Shown piece by piece: positions 7,765-63,807 of a stretch of 64,000 bases of DNA (positions are counted from its first letter, which is position 1; the number at the start of each line of letters is the position of its first letter). The translations under genes were made by a program, and so were the position numbers. Origin of the DNA: an uncultured bacterium. GTDB lineage: Bacteria; Cyanobacteriota; Vampirovibrionia; Gastranaerophilales; Gastranaerophilaceae. The notes beneath the pieces were generated by a model, which saw only the letters and a program-made list of their open reading frames with translations, did no database searches and was not told the DNA's origin. Location: positions 62,001 to 126,000 of the forward strand of contig ONOE01000005.1 in the NCBI GenBank assembly GCA_900319365.1, written 5' to 3'.

Positions 7765-10700
7765 TTATTTATTATCTTCATTCGGTGTATTCTGTTCTAT
7801 ACCTGATAAATCGGGTAATTGGATATTGTTATCGGATAAGAATTTTTCCATATCAAAATCCGTATTGAAGTTTAATCCGTATTTCTTCACAATGTAATTT
7901 GCCTGAGATATGCAAATATTAGCCTTATCTTCAACTTTCAAGCATTTCATAAGTTTATACATCGTGAATTTATTTAATAACATGAGATAATCGCTCACTC
8001 CGCCGAGTTTTTCCATTTGGATAGATGAATTGTTCAACATTCCGTAAGCTATATCAAATCTGCCCTGTTTCATGTGCAGTACGCTGAGGACATACCAACC
8101 CATAAACATTATAGCGTTCAAGCCTTTATCTTTGGCGCTTTTAACAACTTCATACAAAATTGAAGATGCTTTATAGTATGATTTCAATTCAGAATATGCA
8201 TACCCGATTACCAGATCCGCAAAGAGTTCAAACGGATATAAGAAAGCTTCTTTTGCAACAAGTTTTGATTTATAAATTTCTTTCGCAAGTTCCGTCGGAT
8301 TATCTTTGTAATCGGTAAACGCTTTTATTATGTAATAAAGCAGGCTTGAAAATACGTTGTTCCCTTTATCATCATCTGTTACGGATACCTCTTTGCCTTT
8401 AATTAAATCCTGCAATTTTAAGAAAATATTATATTCTTTGGGGATAAAATCGTATAATTTATTTGCAATATTTAAAAATTCCCCGACATCTTCTCTCATT
8501 ATAAGGACATCAGATATCATAGCGTAACCGATACCTTCAGTTAGCAAAGCCTTGAAATCGTCTTTTGACACAAGAGAGCAATCAATCATATCAAGTTTTG
8601 TTTCGTCAAGAACATTTATAATATTATACGCAATATCAACACAATCATTAAATGCACCTATTCCGAATAATATTTTTATATGAACAATAGACATTAAAAG
8701 GAATTTCAAATTGAAATTAGATGCGGCAGGATCAATTGAAGCATCGTTCATAACGGATAAAATTTTATGCGTCAAGCTCAAAGCATACAAATATTCGCCA
8801 TGATTTAAAGCACCTTGAATCATTTTTGTACATAAATCCGTAAAGTTTGCTTTATCCTGCGATTTTTGTAAATCTTCCAGCGTTTTGTCCGCTATTTCTC
8901 TTGTCTGCTCGGGGTCATATTCAAACATATTATTTGAAATATTTTCATAAACCGTAGATTTGTATTGATCTAATTCTTCTTTTGACCAATCTTTTTCATA
9001 TTTATCCAAAGATTTTATAAGCTCTGCCGAACAATTCAAATACGCAGAAAAATCACCCATCGACAAATCAAGATTTGCAAGATTTTCCCATTCTGATATT
9101 ACTTTTTTATGTTCATCCTCTATTTCGTACATTTTTGCTTTTTCGGGCGACGGCATTTCATCGGTGTAAACTTTTTCAAACAACTCATTAACAAGCGCTT
9201 TCAATTTATCTTCATCATACACCGCAACAATATTTTCTCTCAAAATATTATAATTCGGGAAATAAATATTATCGTTATAGAAATACAAGAAACCTCTTTG
9301 TGCCAAATCCTGCGCTAATTCTTCCCACTTATCGATACCGAAAGATTCTACCGTTCTGCGGTCGACTCTTGGTCCGAGTAATGCTCCCATTGACAAAAGT
9401 TTGAGCAAATTCTTATTATCTTTCATTATATTTAAACGTCTTTGCATCAAAAGTTTCAAACTTGAAGGAAGCATTGTTGTTTTTGCGTTCTTTAAAACGA
9501 TTGAATTGTCCGTAAACTCATAAACTTCCGACTCTACCAGATATTGAATTGCATAATCGAAGAACAGAATACTCCCCGCCGCATATTTTGCAATACGTTT
9601 GAAAAAGAAATCGTTTTTGATGTTTTTATAATAATCTCCGCCCTCTGCGACAATACTGTCAAATGATGCGGGAACAAGGGTTATTTCCGTATAATAAGGT
9701 CTTGACAGAAGGAAGTGATTATTTTTATGCAATGAAAATTCCTTGTCATGAGAAATTATGCAGCTTATATTCATTTGTTCGAAATTGTCAAACAACAACC
9801 CGAGAACAAACATCGAAGCCGAATCCGCCTTTTCGAAATTTTCTATATAAATTAATGTATCGGGGATGGATTTTAACAAAGATAAAAATACTTCAAAATA
9901 CTTTTGTCTTGTATCTTCAAGATTTTCCATTCCTCTTTGTTTTAAATTAATCAAATCTCTCAACAAATTATCCGTATCAAAACTTGAGAATGTCGAAAAA
10001 TCATTTGTTGAGAATAACTTTGGGGAAACAGTAAAATCAAAAATTGATGAAACCAATTCTCTAAAGAATGAATACGGGGAATATTTCATATTATCATGAC
10101 AAGTTACGGGTATGATATTTTGATACAACCCGAGCTCGCTAACGGTTGATAATACCCTCAAAGTATAAGGCTGATACATGCTTGAACCTTTTATCGCAAT
10201 TATACCTTTCGGAACTTCCTGCAAAACTTCGGTTAAATTATCAAGAATCCTGACATTTTCCGTTGTATAAAAGGCGCAATTTATTTCATCAAAATTTATA
10301 AGGTCAACATTGTATAAATCTTCGCCCGCAATCTCGTTTGCTTCTTCTATAGACTGCTCAACGATTTTATCCTGTGCAAGCATACCTTCGTGAATAAAGT
10401 TCGGGATTTCGGGGTTTGCTTCTTCTTCCTGTTCCTGAACTTCTTTTATATATTCATCTATATTTATAAATTCTTTTATATTGATTTCAAAAAATCTTTT
10501 CATTCTACCGTTCACAAGGACAGAATCAAGAGATTCCATTTTGTAAGTTTTGGAATAAATTTCTTCGAAATCATCATCTGTCATAACCTGACAGGAATCA
10601 AGCGCCCTTGCGGATTTGTCGTTGCTCTGATTGAGCATATTTGCCTGAAATCCCGTTTCAATATCGTAAGGATCTTTATCCGCATCCCTTTTAATAATGG

Positions 10701-11259
10701 TAAAATTGGCTTTAAGCGAAATATTTTTTTTGCTTATAAGTTTTACATTCAAACGGGTAATTTTATTTGCAAGAGCAATAACGGTTTCTATTGCGGATTT
10801 TGCAGATGATGACATTGTATAAGCTTTGTTAAAACGAATTATGTAAATACCGTTTTTAAGAATTTGCCTTCTGACTTTTTTCGGCGAGGTACAAGATAAA
10901 ATAAGCTTATCAATGTTAGATTTAAACTTTGTAAAAAGCTGATTTGAGCCGAGTGCGGCTTTTATAACGTCATAATTCGGAAATTCGATTTTAACGACCG
11001 CAAAAGTGTCGGCGTTAGATTCGTTTCTGACGGCGCTGATTTCTGTCGGATAACCGCATTTTACACACTTGCGGTTTTTCATCATATTAATTTTCCCGCA
11101 ATTTGAGCATTTTACTACGAGAATTTCTCCGCACTTCTTACATATATTTTTTTCGTTAACGGTTCGGCAGACAGGGCAAACGATTTTCAAAACTTTTTTG
11201 CAGTTAGGACAAACCATTGCGCTTTTATCAATTTCTGCACCGCACTTAGGACATTCCAT
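7765..11259 (-). CDS. Giant zinc-ribbon, degenerate cyclase/ATPase-like, helical-repeat protein
   Basis: The 1164-residue protein starts with three zinc ribbons (Cys pairs 3/6-17/20, 28/31-40/43, 51/54-65/68). Residues 85-265 have the secondary-structure rhythm of a class III nucleotide cyclase domain but lack clear metal-binding Asp residues. Residues ~340-640 align with the ATPase part of the paralogue at 56618. There the intact P-loop GEKGCGKT is KGSSMYQPYT here (357-366), and the Walker B IIIDNFD is IYIENFE. The C-terminal ~500 residues are TPR-like helical repeats. The order zinc ribbon, cyclase, AAA/STAND ATPase, TPR is a known signalling architecture. I infer a scaffold or pseudo-enzyme. 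It is predicted to be transcribed without a leader (see 11266-11294). Confidence 0.7.
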   Translation of the reverse strand: MECPKCGAEIDKSAMVCPNCKKVLKIVCPVCRTVNEKNICKKCGEILVVKCSNCGKINMMKNRKCVKCGYPTEISAVRNESNADTFAVVKIEFPNYDVIKAALGSNQLFTKFKSNIDKLILSCTSPKKVRRQILKNGIYIIRFNKAYTMSSSAKSAIETVIALANKITRLNVKLISKKNISLKANFTIIKRDADKDPYDIETGFQANMLNQSNDKSARALDSCQVMTDDDFEEIYSKTYKMESLDSVLVNGRMKRFFEINIKEFINIDEYIKEVQEQEEEANPEIPNFIHEGMLAQDKIVEQSIEEANEIAGEDLYNVDLINFDEINCAFYTTENVRILDNLTEVLQEVPKGIIAIKGSSMYQPYTLRVLSTVSELGLYQNIIPVTCHDNMKYSPYSFFRELVSSIFDFTVSPKLFSTNDFSTFSSFDTDNLLRDLINLKQRGMENLEDTRQKYFEVFLSLLKSIPDTLIYIENFEKADSASMFVLGLLFDNFEQMNISCIISHDKEFSLHKNNHFLLSRPYYTEITLVPASFDSIVAEGGDYYKNIKNDFFFKRIAKYAAGSILFFDYAIQYLVESEVYEFTDNSIVLKNAKTTMLPSSLKLLMQRRLNIMKDNKNLLKLLSMGALLGPRVDRRTVESFGIDKWEELAQDLAQRGFLYFYNDNIYFPNYNILRENIVAVYDEDKLKALVNELFEKVYTDEMPSPEKAKMYEIEDEHKKVISEWENLANLDLSMGDFSAYLNCSAELIKSLDKYEKDWSKEELDQYKSTVYENISNNMFEYDPEQTREIADKTLEDLQKSQDKANFTDLCTKMIQGALNHGEYLYALSLTHKILSVMNDASIDPAASNFNLKFLLMSIVHIKILFGIGAFNDCVDIAYNIINVLDETKLDMIDCSLVSKDDFKALLTEGIGYAMISDVLIMREDVGEFLNIANKLYDFIPKEYNIFLKLQDLIKGKEVSVTDDDKGNNVFSSLLYYIIKAFTDYKDNPTELAKEIYKSKLVAKEAFLYPFELFADLVIGYAYSELKSYYKASSILYEVVKSAKDKGLNAIMFMGWYVLSVLHMKQGRFDIAYGMLNNSSIQMEKLGGVSDYLMLLNKFTMYKLMKCLKVEDKANICISQANYIVKKYGLNFNTDFDMEKFLSDNNIQLPDLSGIEQNTPNEDNK

Positions 11260-56617: not shown

Positions 56618-59593
56618 TTACAAATTAAATCCGTTTTTCAAACAGTATTCGTTAAGCATTTCTTTTTGCTGAACAACAGCATTTTTTACGTAAGCGTTTT
56701 GAGTTTCTTTTACTGTTAATTCCATTGCTTTTTCATACATTGACGATGCCCCACGTAAATATTCTATTTTATCCTGATTTACGTAAGTACCGATTTCATA
56801 ATAATATTTGCCGTAAGTCAAATATATTCTTGCAAGTAAATCATACGTCTTGAAATGTTTTGCAAGCTTCAATGCTTCTTCCAAATTCATTTTAGCGGAC
56901 GTATAATCAGCAATATTCATATATGCAGCAGATAAAACCATTCTCAAATTAACAGCAAAAAAATAATTATCTATTGCAGGGTTCATTGAGATTTCAAGAG
57001 CCTGAGTCGCAACATCAATTGCACCTTTTGAATTATCGGTAACAATGGTTGCTTCTGCAATCAGATACCACGAAAGCAAGGCACCGAGTGCCATTTTTTC
57101 TTTTGCAAAATACGTTACCTGCTCATCATAAATTTCAAGTGCATGCTGAGCCTTGTTTTCATCTTTCAACAATTTGCCCAAAAGGGTTTTCAAGATATTT
57201 TTGGTAAAATTGTCCCCCGTATTGTTTGCAAAAGTAACCGCATCAAAAAGATTTTCTCTTAAATCCGTATAATCTTTTGTTACAAACTTGTTGATGATAT
57301 ATACAAGATTCATTCTTGAAACCGTATTATCGTCCATATACTCGTTTTTATAGCGTTCGTTTACCTCAAGTAAAATTTTGTTTGAAGTATTGATATCGCC
57401 TTTTACCGTATTTGCGTAAGCCTGAACAATTTTTGCTTTTGCAAAAAGCAGTTTATCATTAATTTTATGCTTTTGAATTATGGTAAATAAATTATTTAAT
57501 ACCTCAAAAGCTCTGTCATTACCTTGAATTGCAAGTGCTTTTGCAAGTATAAGATATACATTCAACCACGTATCAAATAACAGCCCCAGAGGGAACAATT
57601 TGCTCAATCTCGGTCTTTCGAGATATTTGTTTAATACGGGCAAAACATCATGATCTATTAAATTTATAACCTCGCCGCAATTTCCGATATCAAGAAGCGA
57701 CGGGAGTTTTGAGCCGATAATCATGGCTCTTTCAAGTTCTGCGCCCGTGCTGATTTTTTTCAATACATTATCCGCACACTCAACATTCCCGAAATAATTT
57801 CCCGTTTTGCTGCAACATTTTGCAAGATACCCCAGAAGCTCAATTTCTTTTACTTCATCATTACTTTTTCTTGCATTTGAAATTGCATCGGGCAAAAATT
57901 CCACAGCTTCTTCAGGATCATATTCTGTTAAGAGTTTGCCCAGTTTTTCGCTTATACTGTATCTTATATTCAAAGTTTCCGATTCGTTAAACTCATTTAA
58001 CAGCGCAAGACATTGTTTTTGAGCAATTACATAAAGATTAATATCGCCTATATATGCGGCAAGCCTTGTCGTTTTTGTCCAGATATCAAACGCCATTCTG
58101 TTTTCTTTGAGATTGTGCGCAATCATTGCCATTGTAGCGTTTGTATTGAGGTTGAATATACTTATTGATTTGATGATTTTGATATTTAAATCTTCAAAAT
58201 CCGAATCATGCGTAATACCTTTGAGAATGGTTTCCCATAACAAAAGATTGTTAAATTCGTAATGAACTTCATCATAAGGGTGAATAAAATCAGACATTTC
58301 AAGATAATGAAGAATGTCATTAAATTCTTTTTCTTCAAATCCGAAAATTTCTCTTATTAAAGTCTTATTTATTTTATCTCCGAGAATTGCGGCACCGCAT
58401 AAAACTTTATAAGCAATTTTGTTGCTTTTTTTTAAAGTTTGAAGCCTGATTTTTATTAAATCTTCAAAAGTTTCGGGGAGTACAAACGCCTTGTCATTTA
58501 TCTGGCAGTCAAAAACATAACTGTACGCCTGCTGAATGTATGCAAGATTGCAATCAGATTTTGAAATGATTACTTCTTTTTCTTTTTCCGATACGCAATT
58601 TTGTAAATCCTGCCTGAATTTCAGGTTTCCAAACTCTTGCGGCGTTATGGGGCGTAAATTTATATCGGTAAACTCTTTTAAATTGCGATTATCGATTCCG
58701 AGCAAACCGCTTATGGGTTTCGGATTATTATAAACCGCAATAAACTTAATATTTTTGCGAATTTTGTCATTGTTTAACAAATTAGTTATAAACTCTGCAC
58801 TAAATCCGTCTATAAAATCAAAATTATCTATTATGATTAAAAATCTGCCCGTTGATGCAAAAGCCGAAAAGATTTTGTGCAACAGAGCAAAAGTTCTTTT
58901 CTTATTTATAATTATATCTTCATAATTTCCGTCATTGAAATTATATATAAAATTGATAAAATCCTGTACTTCCGACGGATTTAAGAACTTAAACTCTTTT
59001 GTAAAAAATTCGGTTGCATTTTTTATAAGTTCTTTATTTTTAATACTGAACACGGGCAATGCAAAAAGATTTAGCATCATATCCTGAATAACTCCGCCCG
59101 GAGTTAACTGGGTAAGTTGGGTGCATTTGCCTATGCATGGCTGCATTCCGTTTTGAACGGCATGGGATATTCCGTTTTTCAGGACGGTAGTTTTACCGCA
59201 GCCTTTTTCTCCCGTTACGGAAATTATTTTTTTATCTTTATCGGATAATGCAGATTTTAAAAGCTCTACACCCTCCCAAACCGAATGGTATTCGGGATTG
59301 TATTCAAGCGGATTGTTTGTTTTTTGCTTTTTCTTTTCCTTTTCCTTTTTATCTTTTTTTTCGGGAACTCCGAAACTTGAACCGCATTTTCTGCATTTGA
59401 CGGCACTCGGATAATTTATTCCCGAGCATTTCGGACAAACTTTGAGCAAATCATGTCCGCATTTAGAACATTTTAAATTCGTCAAAGGATTTATCGTATT
59501 GCAATAGCTGCATAATAAACCTGTTCTTGTTTTGCAGTACGGACATTTAATTGAGTTATCTGCTATATTTTTTTTACATACCGGACATTTCAT
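56618..59593 (-). CDS. Zinc-ribbon STAND-type ATPase with TPR repeats
   Basis: The 991-residue protein begins with three zinc ribbons (Cys 3/6-17/20, 28/31-42/45, 53/56-67/70), then a Lys/Glu linker (77-92). An ATPase core follows, with P-loop GEKGCGKT (128-135) and Walker B FLIIIDNFD (251-259). A winged-helix-like part (~380-450) and ~500 residues of TPR-like helices complete it. This is the STAND layout: a ligand-gated switch that often activates transcription or assembly. It lies 12 bases behind the sigma-like gene and shares a transcript with it. It is the intact paralogue of the protein at 7765, but lacks the cyclase-like part. Confidence 0.82.
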   Translation of the reverse strand: MKCPVCKKNIADNSIKCPYCKTRTGLLCSYCNTINPLTNLKCSKCGHDLLKVCPKCSGINYPSAVKCRKCGSSFGVPEKKDKKEKEKKKQKTNNPLEYNPEYHSVWEGVELLKSALSDKDKKIISVTGEKGCGKTTVLKNGISHAVQNGMQPCIGKCTQLTQLTPGGVIQDMMLNLFALPVFSIKNKELIKNATEFFTKEFKFLNPSEVQDFINFIYNFNDGNYEDIIINKKRTFALLHKIFSAFASTGRFLIIIDNFDFIDGFSAEFITNLLNNDKIRKNIKFIAVYNNPKPISGLLGIDNRNLKEFTDINLRPITPQEFGNLKFRQDLQNCVSEKEKEVIISKSDCNLAYIQQAYSYVFDCQINDKAFVLPETFEDLIKIRLQTLKKSNKIAYKVLCGAAILGDKINKTLIREIFGFEEKEFNDILHYLEMSDFIHPYDEVHYEFNNLLLWETILKGITHDSDFEDLNIKIIKSISIFNLNTNATMAMIAHNLKENRMAFDIWTKTTRLAAYIGDINLYVIAQKQCLALLNEFNESETLNIRYSISEKLGKLLTEYDPEEAVEFLPDAISNARKSNDEVKEIELLGYLAKCCSKTGNYFGNVECADNVLKKISTGAELERAMIIGSKLPSLLDIGNCGEVINLIDHDVLPVLNKYLERPRLSKLFPLGLLFDTWLNVYLILAKALAIQGNDRAFEVLNNLFTIIQKHKINDKLLFAKAKIVQAYANTVKGDINTSNKILLEVNERYKNEYMDDNTVSRMNLVYIINKFVTKDYTDLRENLFDAVTFANNTGDNFTKNILKTLLGKLLKDENKAQHALEIYDEQVTYFAKEKMALGALLSWYLIAEATIVTDNSKGAIDVATQALEISMNPAIDNYFFAVNLRMVLSAAYMNIADYTSAKMNLEEALKLAKHFKTYDLLARIYLTYGKYYYEIGTYVNQDKIEYLRGASSMYEKAMELTVKETQNAYVKNAVVQQKEMLNEYCLKNGFNL

Positions 59594-59605
59594 AATACTT
59601 GCAAC

Positions 59606-60223
59606 TTATTGTTCATCAAGAACACTTTTAACTTTATCTATAAGCCCATATAATCTTTTTGAAACCTCAGATTGAGAAATTCCGAGTTCGGATGCTATTT
59701 CTTTCTGAGTCATACCTCTGTCATACCTTAATAAAAAGATTTCCATATATTTTTCATCAGGTTCGTTTAAGTTTATTTCCTGAATGGTATCGGCAACGAA
59801 ATCAAGAATTTCATGCTGAATGGCATTTTCTTCGGGATTCATCGGCACATTTATGCAACCGTAATCGACATTATATGAACCGTAATCAACAGTTTCGATA
59901 TTATCAAACGCCGCAACGGGAGCTTCCGTTATCGGTTCGGGAGCTCTGACGGTTTCAAGCGGAACTTCGTTTGTTGTCATATAGCCCGTTTTTACTCTGC
60001 GCAAACGCCCGGAATCTTTTAAAACGTTTATAATAGAAGTTGTTACGATTTTTCTTAAATATGCCGTAAGGGTAGTTTCGTTATCAATAGCGTTTATGAT
60101 TGCAACAGAACGATGACAAGCTTCATTTAAAAAGTCCTCGTATAAATCTTCATTGCCTTGATATTTACGATCATTTTTAACAAGCTTTGATATTAAATCT
60201 ATTTTGTCCTGCGTTATTTCCAC
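59606..60223 (-). CDS. Sigma-70-like regulator with HTH
   Basis: I place the start at GTG 60223, because AAGGGA lies seven bases upstream; TTG 60229 is too close to that site. The ~205-residue protein has a region-2-like segment (LYEDFLNEACHRSVAIINAI, TTLTAYLRKIVTTSIINVLK) and a C-terminal region-4-type helix-turn-helix, RGMTQKEIASELGISQSEVS (about 165-184). An acidic middle separates them. It could be an ECF-type sigma factor or a sigma-like regulator. In cyanobacteria sigma-like genes often lie near DUF1822 genes, as here. Confidence 0.78.
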   Translation of the reverse strand: MEITQDKIDLISKLVKNDRKYQGNEDLYEDFLNEACHRSVAIINAIDNETTLTAYLRKIVTTSIINVLKDSGRLRRVKTGYMTTNEVPLETVRAPEPITEAPVAAFDNIETVDYGSYNVDYGCINVPMNPEENAIQHEILDFVADTIQEINLNEPDEKYMEIFLLRYDRGMTQKEIASELGISQSEVSKRLYGLIDKVKSVLDEQ

Positions 60224-60246
60224 AAACAATCCCTTCGTTTAAGGAA

Positions 60247-60252
60247 ATTATA
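60247..60252 (-). promoter_or_regulatory. Extended -10 promoter of the sigma-like gene
   Basis: On the minus strand TGC-TATAAT is an extended -10 element 24 bases before the GTG start. A weak TTAAAA lies 17 bases further up. It sits between the 973-residue gene and the sigma-like gene, so the latter can be transcribed independently. Confidence 0.55.
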
Positions 60253-60258
60253 GCATAT

Positions 60259-63180
60259 TTACAAATAAATTTTAAGTATCACGGTTGTACTTTCGTCATT
60301 TCCCACGCTATTAGGCGCTTTGAGCACCTTTAAGGTTTGGTTAACAGATTGTAACACAATGTTATCCACCTGACTCGAGCCGCTTGATAATAATATCCTT
60401 GATTGCTTGAATGTTCCGTCCCTATCAAAGACTATACTTACTTTTATCTGGTCAGAATATACATAATCGGTTGCAAGAAGTAAATCACTTGATAAAGCCG
60501 ATTTCAAACTCTTGCCCGTTGATTGGAAATACTGCCTGAAGTTTGAATTGTATGAAATATAATCGGGAACTTCCCAGCTCAATTTCTTTATTGATAAGAA
60601 TGAAGTTGCGGCAATTTGTTTTGCGGATCTTGTCGGAGCTGCCGTATTTGCCTGCGGAGCGGGAGGCTGTGCCGTATTCATGTTGTTGTTATTATCGTTC
60701 ATTACAACATTGTTATTATCAATATTCATTGCGTTCGGATCTTGAGCGGCAGGATTATTCTGATTATACTCGTTATCCTCGGATATCGGTTGATTATCCT
60801 GAGAATTCATTTTTGAAACCGAGAAAAGTATTGCACCCGTAATCATTACAACAAGCGCAACTCCTGCTATCCCGACACCGAGTGGAATAGGCTTAGAATC
60901 TTTTCTTACGACTCTTACATCATTATTTAACCCGGAATCCTGAACGAGTTCATCATTATCATTATATAAGCCGTTGATTCCGTCGCCCGCATCAGCCTCA
61001 TCATCCGATTTTTTATTTATATCAATAGGAATTTCACCGACTTTGAACGTTTTATCGCTTATTACGGTAGAATTTTCTTTTACTCCGTTTTCGTCTGTAT
61101 CTTGTACTGCAACGGGTTCTTCGTCGGGATTATCGGTAGCTTTCATAAGTTCTTCCGCATCAACCGTTTCGAAATCCGAAAAATCTTCAATTTTATCATC
61201 ATCTTCGACATTTTCTGAAAGATTTTCATCTTTTTCGGGCGGCATTGCAGCTAAATCAGAAAAATCAACCAAATCATAATCCGCATCTTCTTCAGACCCA
61301 TCTTCTGATGAGATATCCGTAACATCAGACGTCGAAGCAACAGACACCTCATCTTCAGGACTTTGAGTTGCATCAGACGTCATGCCAACTTCAGGTGTTT
61401 CTGTTTCGGTTTCATTTTCACTTTGTGTATTTTGTTCTAAATTCAAATTTTCAACCGTAACATTATCGCCATCAACATCTTGAACCTCATCATTAAGAGA
61501 AATATCCATATCTTGCGGTAAATCTGAAATTCCGCCCGTAAGTTCATTATCAGAAGTTTCATTTTGAATTTCATCGCCCGTATTTTCGATATTCATATCT
61601 TGCGAAACATCATCAAGATTTAACATATCGCCCGTAAAATCCTGATTTGCCAAATCGCTGTCTAACGATAAATCTAAATCGCCCAAATCGGTTTCATCGG
61701 TTGAAATATCCGATAAATCAACAGGGGCATCGTTTTTATTTTCTTCGCTTTCAATATTTTCACTATTATCAACAAGCGTTTCGCTTTCGCCTATTTCAGG
61801 CTCATCAGTTGTTTGAATATCTTTGATCTCATCTTGTTGTATTTGAGAAGTTTCATCTTGGGAATCTTTTTCAGGTTCGGCAGTTTTCTGTTCTGTTACG
61901 GGTTCTTCTACTATATCTGACGGCTCTTGAGAAATTTCAAAATCTTGCACAGCATCGGTTGAAGAATCCGTTGTTTCATTTTCATCAGATAAGAAATCGT
62001 CTAAATTTACATCATCAAAAGACATTTCGTCCATATCGGAAACTTCATTATCATTTGATAATAAATCATCAGAAACATCAGGCAGCTCGTCTTGATTTTT
62101 GTTTTCATTATTATTATTTGAACTGTCTGTCAAATTATCGTATAAACCGTCTAAAAGGTCGCCCGCTGCACCAGCAACGATTTCGCCCGATTGAGCCGCA
62201 AGTTCGATTGCCTCATTTGTTGCGGCGCCTGATGCTATAGCTCCTGCTCCTGCCGCACCTGTTATGGCACCTGCGGCAGCTCCGCCGATTGCGCCTGCTG
62301 CCATTCCCGCTCCCGCATCAAGTACGCCCATGCCGTCATCAAGCATGTCGTCCCCGTTATAATCCTGTTTGGGAGGTTCTTCAACAATTTCGGGTTCAAC
62401 AGTCGAACTTTCATCGCTTAAATTCATAAAATCATCAATATTTACAATTCCGCCGTCTTTTTGCTTTTCTTCGGCTTGCTTAATATCATTATTAAAAATT
62501 TTTGCAACATGATATGCAAGAGTTTCAAAATTATCATATTCAAGTACGGAATTTCTGAGAGAATCACTTTTTACCAAAAGATTTAAAAACTCTTTATATT
62601 CATCGTCTGTTATATCATGATCCGCAAGCGAAACAGATAGTTCTCTGCCTCTTAAAATTTCACTATCGGTTAAATCTTTATTTGTATTACCTTTAAAGTC
62701 AGTTATAAAATCAATAATTGACAAAGTCGAAGATAAATCATCGGGACTGACAAAATAATACTTTCCGTTTGTATTTTTAAAATCTATTATTTTCGGTTCA
62801 AAATACCCGAGGAAATCTGTATGGTCATTGCTTTTATCATATTTTAAAACGATATAAACATCAGGAACTATTCCTAAATCAAAATGCTCTTTAGGGATAA
62901 AAATTTTATCTTTGTCAAAAACGACCCTTACGTCAATATGAATATTGGGGAGGATTATATCTGCAATATCGGTATGCTCAACGACTCTTTTTATGGAATG
63001 GATATAGTGAATATCTTCCGTATTCACACCGTTATTATTTAAATACTGCGAAAATACTTCAGCGCCCAAAACGTTTAAAAATATTCTGTTGCGAACAATT
63101 TTATCAACATAACTTCCACACATAAATTCCGCTTCGGACAAATTTTCCTTAGATACTGCAATTAATTCTTCCATAGCCAT
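60259..63180 (-). CDS. DUF1822-like, acidic, single-pass membrane protein with TonB-C-like end
   Basis: ATG 63180 is preferred to TTG 63222 because GGGAGGAAA (63198-63190) lies just upstream. The 973-residue protein has an N-terminal domain (~20-135) that resembles cyanobacterial DUF1822: IFLNVLGAEVFSQYLNNNGV, ADIILPNIHIDVRVVF and FIPKEHFDLGIVPDVYIVL. Next come a glycine-zipper-like Gly/Ala segment (~285-340), a ~400-residue Asp/Glu/Ser-rich disordered region, one membrane helix (~766-788, GVGIAGVALVVMITGAILF), an Asn/Pro linker and a C-terminal TonB-C-like domain (~870-973; KVSIVFDRDGTFKQSRILLS). Topology by charge is N-in, C-out. It precedes the sigma-like gene on the same strand. I infer an envelope sensor or anchor. 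Confidence 0.75.
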   Translation of the reverse strand: MAMEELIAVSKENLSEAEFMCGSYVDKIVRNRIFLNVLGAEVFSQYLNNNGVNTEDIHYIHSIKRVVEHTDIADIILPNIHIDVRVVFDKDKIFIPKEHFDLGIVPDVYIVLKYDKSNDHTDFLGYFEPKIIDFKNTNGKYYFVSPDDLSSTLSIIDFITDFKGNTNKDLTDSEILRGRELSVSLADHDITDDEYKEFLNLLVKSDSLRNSVLEYDNFETLAYHVAKIFNNDIKQAEEKQKDGGIVNIDDFMNLSDESSTVEPEIVEEPPKQDYNGDDMLDDGMGVLDAGAGMAAGAIGGAAAGAITGAAGAGAIASGAATNEAIELAAQSGEIVAGAAGDLLDGLYDNLTDSSNNNNENKNQDELPDVSDDLLSNDNEVSDMDEMSFDDVNLDDFLSDENETTDSSTDAVQDFEISQEPSDIVEEPVTEQKTAEPEKDSQDETSQIQQDEIKDIQTTDEPEIGESETLVDNSENIESEENKNDAPVDLSDISTDETDLGDLDLSLDSDLANQDFTGDMLNLDDVSQDMNIENTGDEIQNETSDNELTGGISDLPQDMDISLNDEVQDVDGDNVTVENLNLEQNTQSENETETETPEVGMTSDATQSPEDEVSVASTSDVTDISSEDGSEEDADYDLVDFSDLAAMPPEKDENLSENVEDDDKIEDFSDFETVDAEELMKATDNPDEEPVAVQDTDENGVKENSTVISDKTFKVGEIPIDINKKSDDEADAGDGINGLYNDNDELVQDSGLNNDVRVVRKDSKPIPLGVGIAGVALVVMITGAILFSVSKMNSQDNQPISEDNEYNQNNPAAQDPNAMNIDNNNVVMNDNNNNMNTAQPPAPQANTAAPTRSAKQIAATSFLSIKKLSWEVPDYISYNSNFRQYFQSTGKSLKSALSSDLLLATDYVYSDQIKVSIVFDRDGTFKQSRILLSSGSSQVDNIVLQSVNQTLKVLKAPNSVGNDESTTVILKIYL

Positions 63181-63357
63181 ATTGACAAATTTCCTCCCTC
63201 TTTCTATTAATATAGATGACAAAACTATTTAAAATATTCCAAAAACCGTGTAAAGTTTTGTAACGATATTAGTAATATTTTAAATTATTTGTCAAAATTG
63301 ATATGTTAATGGTTTTTATATTACTGTATAAAGTAGTGTGTGTAAGGAGGTTTTCTC

Positions 63358-63807
63358 ATGTCTTTAACTGTTAATCCGGTGTCCAGATTAAGTTTTGGTA
63401 ACGGGGCTCAACCGGCAGCTCCGCAAGATGTTAGTAATACAAACGCCGCTCCTCAAGGTGTAAGTGAGGATATTTTTGCACGTCAGGGAGCATTTGCGAG
63501 CCCTGAAGAACCCGCAGCTGCCGCTGCAAATGACAAACCTAAAAAACATTCCGCATTAAAAACCGTAGCGGGAATCGTAGTCGGATTGGCTGTTGTTGCA
63601 GGCGCTCTGTACGGTTTGAAAAAAGGCGGAGTAGTAAAAGAAGTTGAAAATTTAGCAGATCTTAAAGGATTTGATAAAGTTAAAAAATCAGTAGAACATT
63701 ACCTTGCAAAAGGCGGCGGATACGTTGAACAAGGCGTTAACTCCGTAGCTGATTTCTTTAAGAAAAACTGGAACAAATTGTTCCACAAAGAACCCAAAGC
63801 AGCTTAA
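63358..63807 (+). CDS. Small membrane protein of unknown function
   Basis: The 149-residue product has a perfect AAGGAGG ribosome site eight bases before its ATG. The N-terminus reads MSLTVNPVSRLSFGNG, then an Ala/Pro-rich part, one membrane helix (about 64-84, TVAGIVVGLAVVAGALYGL) and a lysine-rich amphipathic C-terminus. The plan resembles the 218-residue protein at 836. It is divergent from the 973-residue gene and ends in a strong terminator. Likely well expressed; family unknown. Confidence 0.72.
   Translation: MSLTVNPVSRLSFGNGAQPAAPQDVSNTNAAPQGVSEDIFARQGAFASPEEPAAAAANDKPKKHSALKTVAGIVVGLAVVAGALYGLKKGGVVKEVENLADLKGFDKVKKSVEHYLAKGGGYVEQGVNSVADFFKKNWNKLFHKEPKAA

Follow-up and report, generated by a model that had tools for sequence, protein, structure and literature searches.

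A conserved gene module of Gastranaerophilales encoding a DUF1822 membrane protein, an ECF-type sigma factor and a zinc-ribbon STAND ATPase: a candidate envelope-signalling switch

The locus and its three genes

The window, i.e. the whole stretch of 64,000 nucleotides that was analysed, is part of contig C12 of a 1.95 Mb genome whose relatives are Candidatus Gastranaerophilales from gut and rumen. Three consecutive genes on its minus strand encode a large membrane protein, a sigma factor and a STAND-type ATPase, here called BIG, SIG and STAND. They are separated by 29 bases (BIG to SIG) and 12 bases (SIG to STAND), and all three were found where a preliminary description of this DNA had placed them (Table 1). 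The ATG of BIG at 63180 (973 aa) is preceded by an AGGGAGG-like ribosome-binding site; with an alternative TTG start the frame is longer and reaches 63222 (987 aa).

A small one-helix protein is encoded divergently from BIG (63358-63807, plus strand of the window), a position kept in many Gastranaerophilales. An arsenic-efflux-type permease (NF037962; 55608-56606, minus strand of the window) and a TPR protein lie downstream of STAND in the nearest relatives only.

Table 1. Features of the module in the window
Feature	Position	Strand	Basis
BIG, membrane protein, 973 aa	60259..63180	-	DUF1822, anti-sigma-like helices, glycine zipper/acidic linker, membrane helix, TonB-CTD-like periplasmic domain
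DUF1822 domain of BIG, predicted PD-(D/E)XK-like fold with D...DxR (model residues D74, D83, R85)	62692..63168	-	Pfam, hhalign, VIA-align
Anti-sigma-like helical domain of BIG, zinc ligands lost in this lineage	62458..62667	-	zf-HC2 in orthologues, RsiW profile, RslA superposition, motif survey
Long acidic linker of BIG, predicted cytoplasmic, residues about 350-776 of the 987-aa frame, ~430 residues	60895..62175	-	composition
Single membrane helix of BIG, N-in/C-out by charge bias, no histidine	60817..60888	-	topology analysis
TonB C-terminal-domain-like domain of BIG, predicted periplasmic	60262..60615	-	Pfam TonB_2 in orthologues, AlphaFold model
SIG, ECF-type sigma factor, regions 2 and 4, 207 aa	59606..60229	-	profile matches
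STAND, zinc-ribbon AAA_16/STAND-type NTPase with TPR-like C-terminus, 991 aa	56618..59593	-	profile, motif conservation
Three zinc ribbons of STAND, 12 conserved cysteines	59384..59587	-	orthologue conservation
P-loop of STAND, GEKGCGKT	59189..59212	-	orthologue conservation
ECF-like promoter element TGGAATA-N13-TGTCATCT	63214..63241	-	conservation upstream of BIG; no second perfect copy in this genome
Sigma-A-like promoter TTGACA-N18-TAATAT, upstream of the BIG operon, before the ECF-like element	63266..63295	-	sequence

SIG, previously described as a sigma-70-like regulator, matches the sigma70-ECF profile TIGR02937 over residues 22-202 (E 7e-21, above cut-off) and has the ECF layout, with sigma regions 2 and 4 and no region 3. 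Region 4 is matched with E 9e-9, and the match to region 2 is weak in the window protein (E 0.07). The third protein proved to be a STAND-type ATPase with three zinc ribbons and an intact P-loop, as had been proposed: six CxxC pairs, corresponding to the three ribbons, are conserved in 28 orthologues, and an AAA_16-type P-loop and a Walker B motif are present.

A paralogue of STAND is encoded in the same window (7765-11259, minus strand; 1164 aa with zinc ribbons). Over the N-terminus the two proteins are 27% identical (E 6e-14), and a second match lies after the NTPase region (E 5e-8); Pfam detected no AAA domain in the paralogue. In other families and in genera g17, g18 and g22 (L054:5907-9593, L070:5173-8895, L302-L311), STAND contains about 200-300 extra residues between the zinc ribbons and the NTPase. 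This extra region resembles a catalytically dead class III nucleotide cyclase in a collinear hhalign alignment of 143 columns, with a probability of only 21%; Pfam returned no match for it, and a PDB profile search only CyaB (E 0.9).

Conservation of the module

In nearly every member of the group that was examined, the three genes are neighbours. SIG is present in 112 of the 117 genomes of the order Gastranaerophilales, and BIG, SIG and STAND follow each other in one direction and with short gaps across many genera, with varying flanking genes. In an independent GTDB genome scan, BIG stood directly before and STAND directly after SIG in 80 of 80 loci, a count limited to nearer relatives because these were the best-matching 80 of 270 loci. 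In the more distant families f2, f3 and f4, BIG and SIG adjoin and STAND is found elsewhere; in family f6 and in genera g17 and g18, all three are present and dispersed. Where unlinked, the components mostly co-occur, and a few genomes have lost single ones; genome G112 lacks all three and G107 retains STAND alone. The SIG homologue of f6 (L057, L058, L059) lies beside a metallo-beta-lactamase-fold gene and not beside BIG, which in G006 and G012 is located elsewhere in the genome. In the rest of the class outside Gastranaerophilales, searches with SIG gave generic region-4 matches only, and of six genomes tested from other orders, five lacked BIG.

At one locus (L043:9723-13975), BIG is divided over two adjacent frames that meet at a repetitive acidic repeat, due to a frameshift, an assembly error or a real split.

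The DUF1822 domain of BIG

BIG of the window matches DUF1822 (PF08852) with E 3.3e-4 and 20.3 bits, below the Pfam cut-off of 25. Among its orthologues, the domain was detected in 31 of 32 N-termini, the best with E 1.7e-14; matches above the cut-off include one of E 6.8e-13. A phylum-wide Pfam search placed DUF1822 above the curated cut-off at the BIG N-terminus in many Gastranaerophilales and also found it in photosynthetic cyanobacteria, and profile-profile comparison (hhalign) of BIG with the cyanobacterial DUF1822 proteins gave 95.8% (E 8e-9).

The predicted model of the BIG N-terminus (pLDDT 91) consists of two parts. For the first (residues 7-163), nearly all top rows of VIA-align were PD-(D/E)XK-fold nucleases (best Z 8.0), namely Hjc resolvases, I-Ssp6803I, DpnI, PvuII, NaeI and SPARDA. 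A PD-(D/E)XK-like fold is accordingly predicted for DUF1822 from its modelled structure. Sequence comparison lent this no support: hhalign of DUF1822 against UPF0102/YraN gave 1.6%, and a PDB profile search yielded no relevant PD-(D/E)XK match. Judging from the end points of the alignment with 1hh1 and from the numbering of the Hjc active site, the E-x-K pair of Hjc presumably falls on D83-x-R85 of BIG. D74 and the (D/E)xR motif are conserved in both Gastranaerophilales and cyanobacteria. The motif stands in place of the (D/E)xK of the PD-(D/E)XK active site, and it is missing from some cyanobacterial DUF1822 paralogues. Because of this arginine and of the motif loss, catalytic activity of DUF1822 is doubtful.

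A probable anti-sigma-like domain in BIG

Between DUF1822 and the acidic linker, BIG likely carries an anti-sigma-like domain, which had been missed in the preliminary description. Four routes lead to it. Pfam zf-HC2 was found in 9 of 32 BIG orthologues (best E 2.7e-6), and in the deep-branching relative L055 DUF1822, zf-HC2 and TonB_2 are all above their cut-offs in one protein. H...HxxxCxxC, the pattern of zinc-binding anti-sigma domains, is present in BIG of families f2, f3 and f4 and of genera g13 and g20. When a profile of the BIG N-termini was compared with all PDB sequences, the best match was the anti-sigma factor RsiW (E 1.7e-4), exactly over this stretch. Finally, in a model without zinc ligands, residues 172-236 of BIG superimposed on the anti-sigma factor RslA as it occurs in complex with region 4 of SigL. 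The superposition covers 62 of 62 residues at Z 4.8, a value that small helical bundles commonly give.

The HxxxCxxC ligands are absent from BIG of the window and from the nearer BIG frames (0 of 81). For this reason, BIG is classed here as a zinc-less relative rather than among the ZAS members. Even though the ligands are gone in the window lineage, its helical fold is predicted to be intact.

Acidic linker, membrane helix and TonB-like domain

The acidic stretch of BIG (residues about 350-780 of the 987-aa frame) contains 32% D+E and 4% K+R. It is followed by the membrane helix (residues 779-802); 106 of 106 BIG proteins have a hydrophobic helix in this place, after the acidic part and before the TonB-like domain, with the N-terminal side the more positive one in 81 of the 106. 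On account of helix and charge bias, BIG should have its DUF1822, anti-sigma-like and acidic parts in the cytoplasm and its TonB-like domain in the periplasm. Pfam TonB_2 was detected in 28 of 31 BIG orthologues. The AlphaFold model of the C-terminus (mean pLDDT 87) matches TonB and TolA C-terminal domains, the closest structure being the H. pylori TonB-CTD (Z 8.8, 91 residues, 2.4 A). Thus the DUF1822 N-terminus, the acidic region, the single membrane helix and the TonB-C domain proposed for the large protein were all recovered. The matches to DUF1822 and TonB-C and the kept gene order, on which the preliminary description had staked its proposal, were both supported on testing.

TonB requires a histidine in its membrane helix for coupling to ExbBD. 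No histidine is present in the BIG helix in any of the 106 orthologues, which makes an ExbBD-driven TonB function of BIG unlikely despite two ExbD genes in the genome.

In genus g14 (L066, L067, L068, L069), regions 2 and 4 of SIG are set apart by a long acidic insert (up to 607 aa, 28% D+E). BIG is shorter in this genus, as though one of the two proteins had passed the acidic stretch to the other.

A conserved putative promoter element upstream of BIG

Upstream of BIG, the boxes TGGAATA and TGTCATCT are conserved at a distance of 13 bases, and the sequence of the spacer is variable. A score of at least 10 of 12 was reached by 84 of 108 upstream regions compared with 27 of 2160 shuffled ones, although many of the regions come from close relatives and the count overstates their independence. 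Families f2 and f5 also show a recognisable copy. The spacing of the element is 1-2 bases shorter than that of classical ECF promoters. Among the genus-mates listed, most have a single perfect copy per genome, and in the window genome the sole perfect copy is the BIG operon's own promoter. Genome scans at the stringency used revealed no regulon beyond this promoter. A one-mismatch site (G000:C26:13323) was rejected as a SIG target, being inside a reading frame taken as dnaA.

By its position and its resemblance to ECF boxes, TGGAATA-N13-TGTCATCT would be the element read by SIG. Its place ahead of the operon in most relatives and its near-uniqueness within each genome suggest autoregulation of the operon.

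Proposed mechanism and alternatives

The gene order, domains, predicted folds, topology, promoter-element conservation and co-occurrence established here by computation are consistent with a membrane sigma/anti-sigma switch with positive feedback, and we consider the sigma/anti-sigma core of this model fairly probable. BIG would reside in the inner membrane, where its cytoplasmic anti-sigma-like helices, beside DUF1822, would bind and hold SIG. In the periplasm, the TonB-CTD-like domain could read a condition of the envelope or outer membrane via a partner. Upon a signal, SIG would be released and would itself act at the conserved ECF-like element to transcribe, at a minimum, the operon that encodes it, which would create positive feedback. 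The STAND ATPase encoded with them may provide a second, cytoplasmic input acting on BIG or SIG. Such a controlling role of STAND, for which conserved adjacency and co-occurrence speak, is considerably less certain. The earlier proposal that the outer domain or STAND controls the sigma factor thus pointed in the right direction, given the anti-sigma-like domain in BIG and the ECF-like element upstream; it lacked the anti-sigma link.

A wider and more tentative model, which we think rather unlikely, is a two-input switch in which the TonB-CTD anti-sigma protein (reporting the outer-membrane state) and the STAND ATPase (reporting the cytoplasmic state) converge on one ECF sigma factor. The PD-(D/E)XK-like DUF1822 would then be a docking site shared with the cyanobacterial caspase-type clusters, and one ancient DUF1822-sigma core would have been coupled to one kind of sensor in cyanobacteria and to another in the related gut bacteria.

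BIG could instead work as an adaptor or co-activator, recruiting SIG and STAND to the membrane without acting as an inhibitor, its DUF1822 and acidic parts serving as a nucleic-acid mimic or binder. The PD-(D/E)XK-like fold, the ~430 acidic residues, the loss of the zinc ligands and the presence of the acidic stretch in SIG instead in genus g14 would fit this, but the zf-HC2 signature of anti-sigma factors in the deeper branches argues against it, and we regard it as improbable. No better are the prospects of a conflict or cell-death system in which STAND senses invasion and triggers a SIG-driven response. Such a role is suggested by the kinship of the DUF1822-sigma pair to the EACC2/CHAT clusters (PMC8195603) and by the frequency of STAND ATPases in such systems; however, the module is near-universal in the order (112/117 genomes) and not patchy, has no effector domain and gave no PADLOC family match beyond generic HTH/P-loop ones. 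That BIG is mainly a mechanical linker of inner and outer membrane like TonB/TolA or GltJ, with SIG and STAND merely co-transcribed, is equally hard to credit, for its TonB-CTD fold, long linker and weak GltJ profile match and the two ExbD genes are met by the missing helix histidine and by an anti-sigma-like domain directly beside a sigma gene, which would otherwise be hard to explain.

If the membrane sigma/anti-sigma switch is real, it is a candidate envelope-signalling system for an uncultured, widespread gut lineage, with BIG joining an anti-sigma-like and a TonB-type domain in one protein. A fold is proposed for DUF1822, which has many cyanobacterial paralogues of unknown function, and the cyanobacterial sigma-DUF1822-CHAT clusters become testable as sigma-regulating systems.

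Comparison with known systems

In the open-access subset of the literature, no description of the BIG domain layout and no paper on Gastranaerophilales paired with sigma factors was found. The ZAS anti-sigma/ECF pairs RsiW-SigW and RslA-SigL share with the module the adjacent sigma gene and a conserved ECF-like element upstream of the operon, and with the predicted architecture of BIG the cytoplasmic anti-sigma-like helices, one membrane helix and a periplasmic C-terminus. They differ from BIG, which has an N-terminal DUF1822, the long acidic linker and a TonB-CTD periplasmic domain, and from the module, in which a STAND ATPase is the third gene, BIG is upstream of SIG and the zinc ligands are lost in the window lineage. 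FecR/FecI-type cell-surface signalling likewise combines a membrane anti-sigma factor that has a periplasmic domain with an ECF sigma factor. FecR has its own periplasmic domain type and not a TonB-CTD, whereas the module has a TonB-CTD and a STAND partner, and no adjacent TonB-dependent receptor gene was seen. GltJ of Myxococcus is built like BIG from cytoplasmic domains, one membrane helix and a periplasmic TonB-C domain. Yet it has neither DUF1822 nor an anti-sigma domain, and its profile match to BIG (E 0.007) covers the helix/linker region only.

Kaur et al. 2021 described cyanobacterial gene neighbourhoods in which an ECF sigma factor occurs together with a DUF1822 protein and an EACC2-caspase protein whose sensor domains vary (PMC8195603). 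In several cyanobacterial loci analysed here, sigma is followed by DUF1822 and this in turn by CHAT with CHASE2 or other sensors; CHAT was found in the four third genes tested, and some neighbours in the sigma position were too divergent to match a sigma profile. The preliminary description was correct in calling DUF1822 with nearby sigma genes a cyanobacterial pattern, which is on record in the literature (PMC8195603), but the two groups do not have the same gene order or the same third gene. The cyanobacterial ECF sigma-DUF1822-EACC2/CHAT(caspase)-CHASE2 clusters (PMC8195603) resemble the module in having DUF1822 beside a sigma factor and a third, larger sensor-type gene. Their order is sigma>DUF1822>CHAT, compared with DUF1822>sigma>STAND in Gastranaerophilales, where an anti-sigma-like domain, a membrane helix and a TonB-CTD replace the C-terminal part of the cyanobacterial DUF1822 protein and the third gene encodes a zinc-ribbon STAND protein without CHAT/caspase. 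The module is best read as a divergent cousin of these cyanobacterial ECF sigma-DUF1822-CHAT clusters (PMC8195603).
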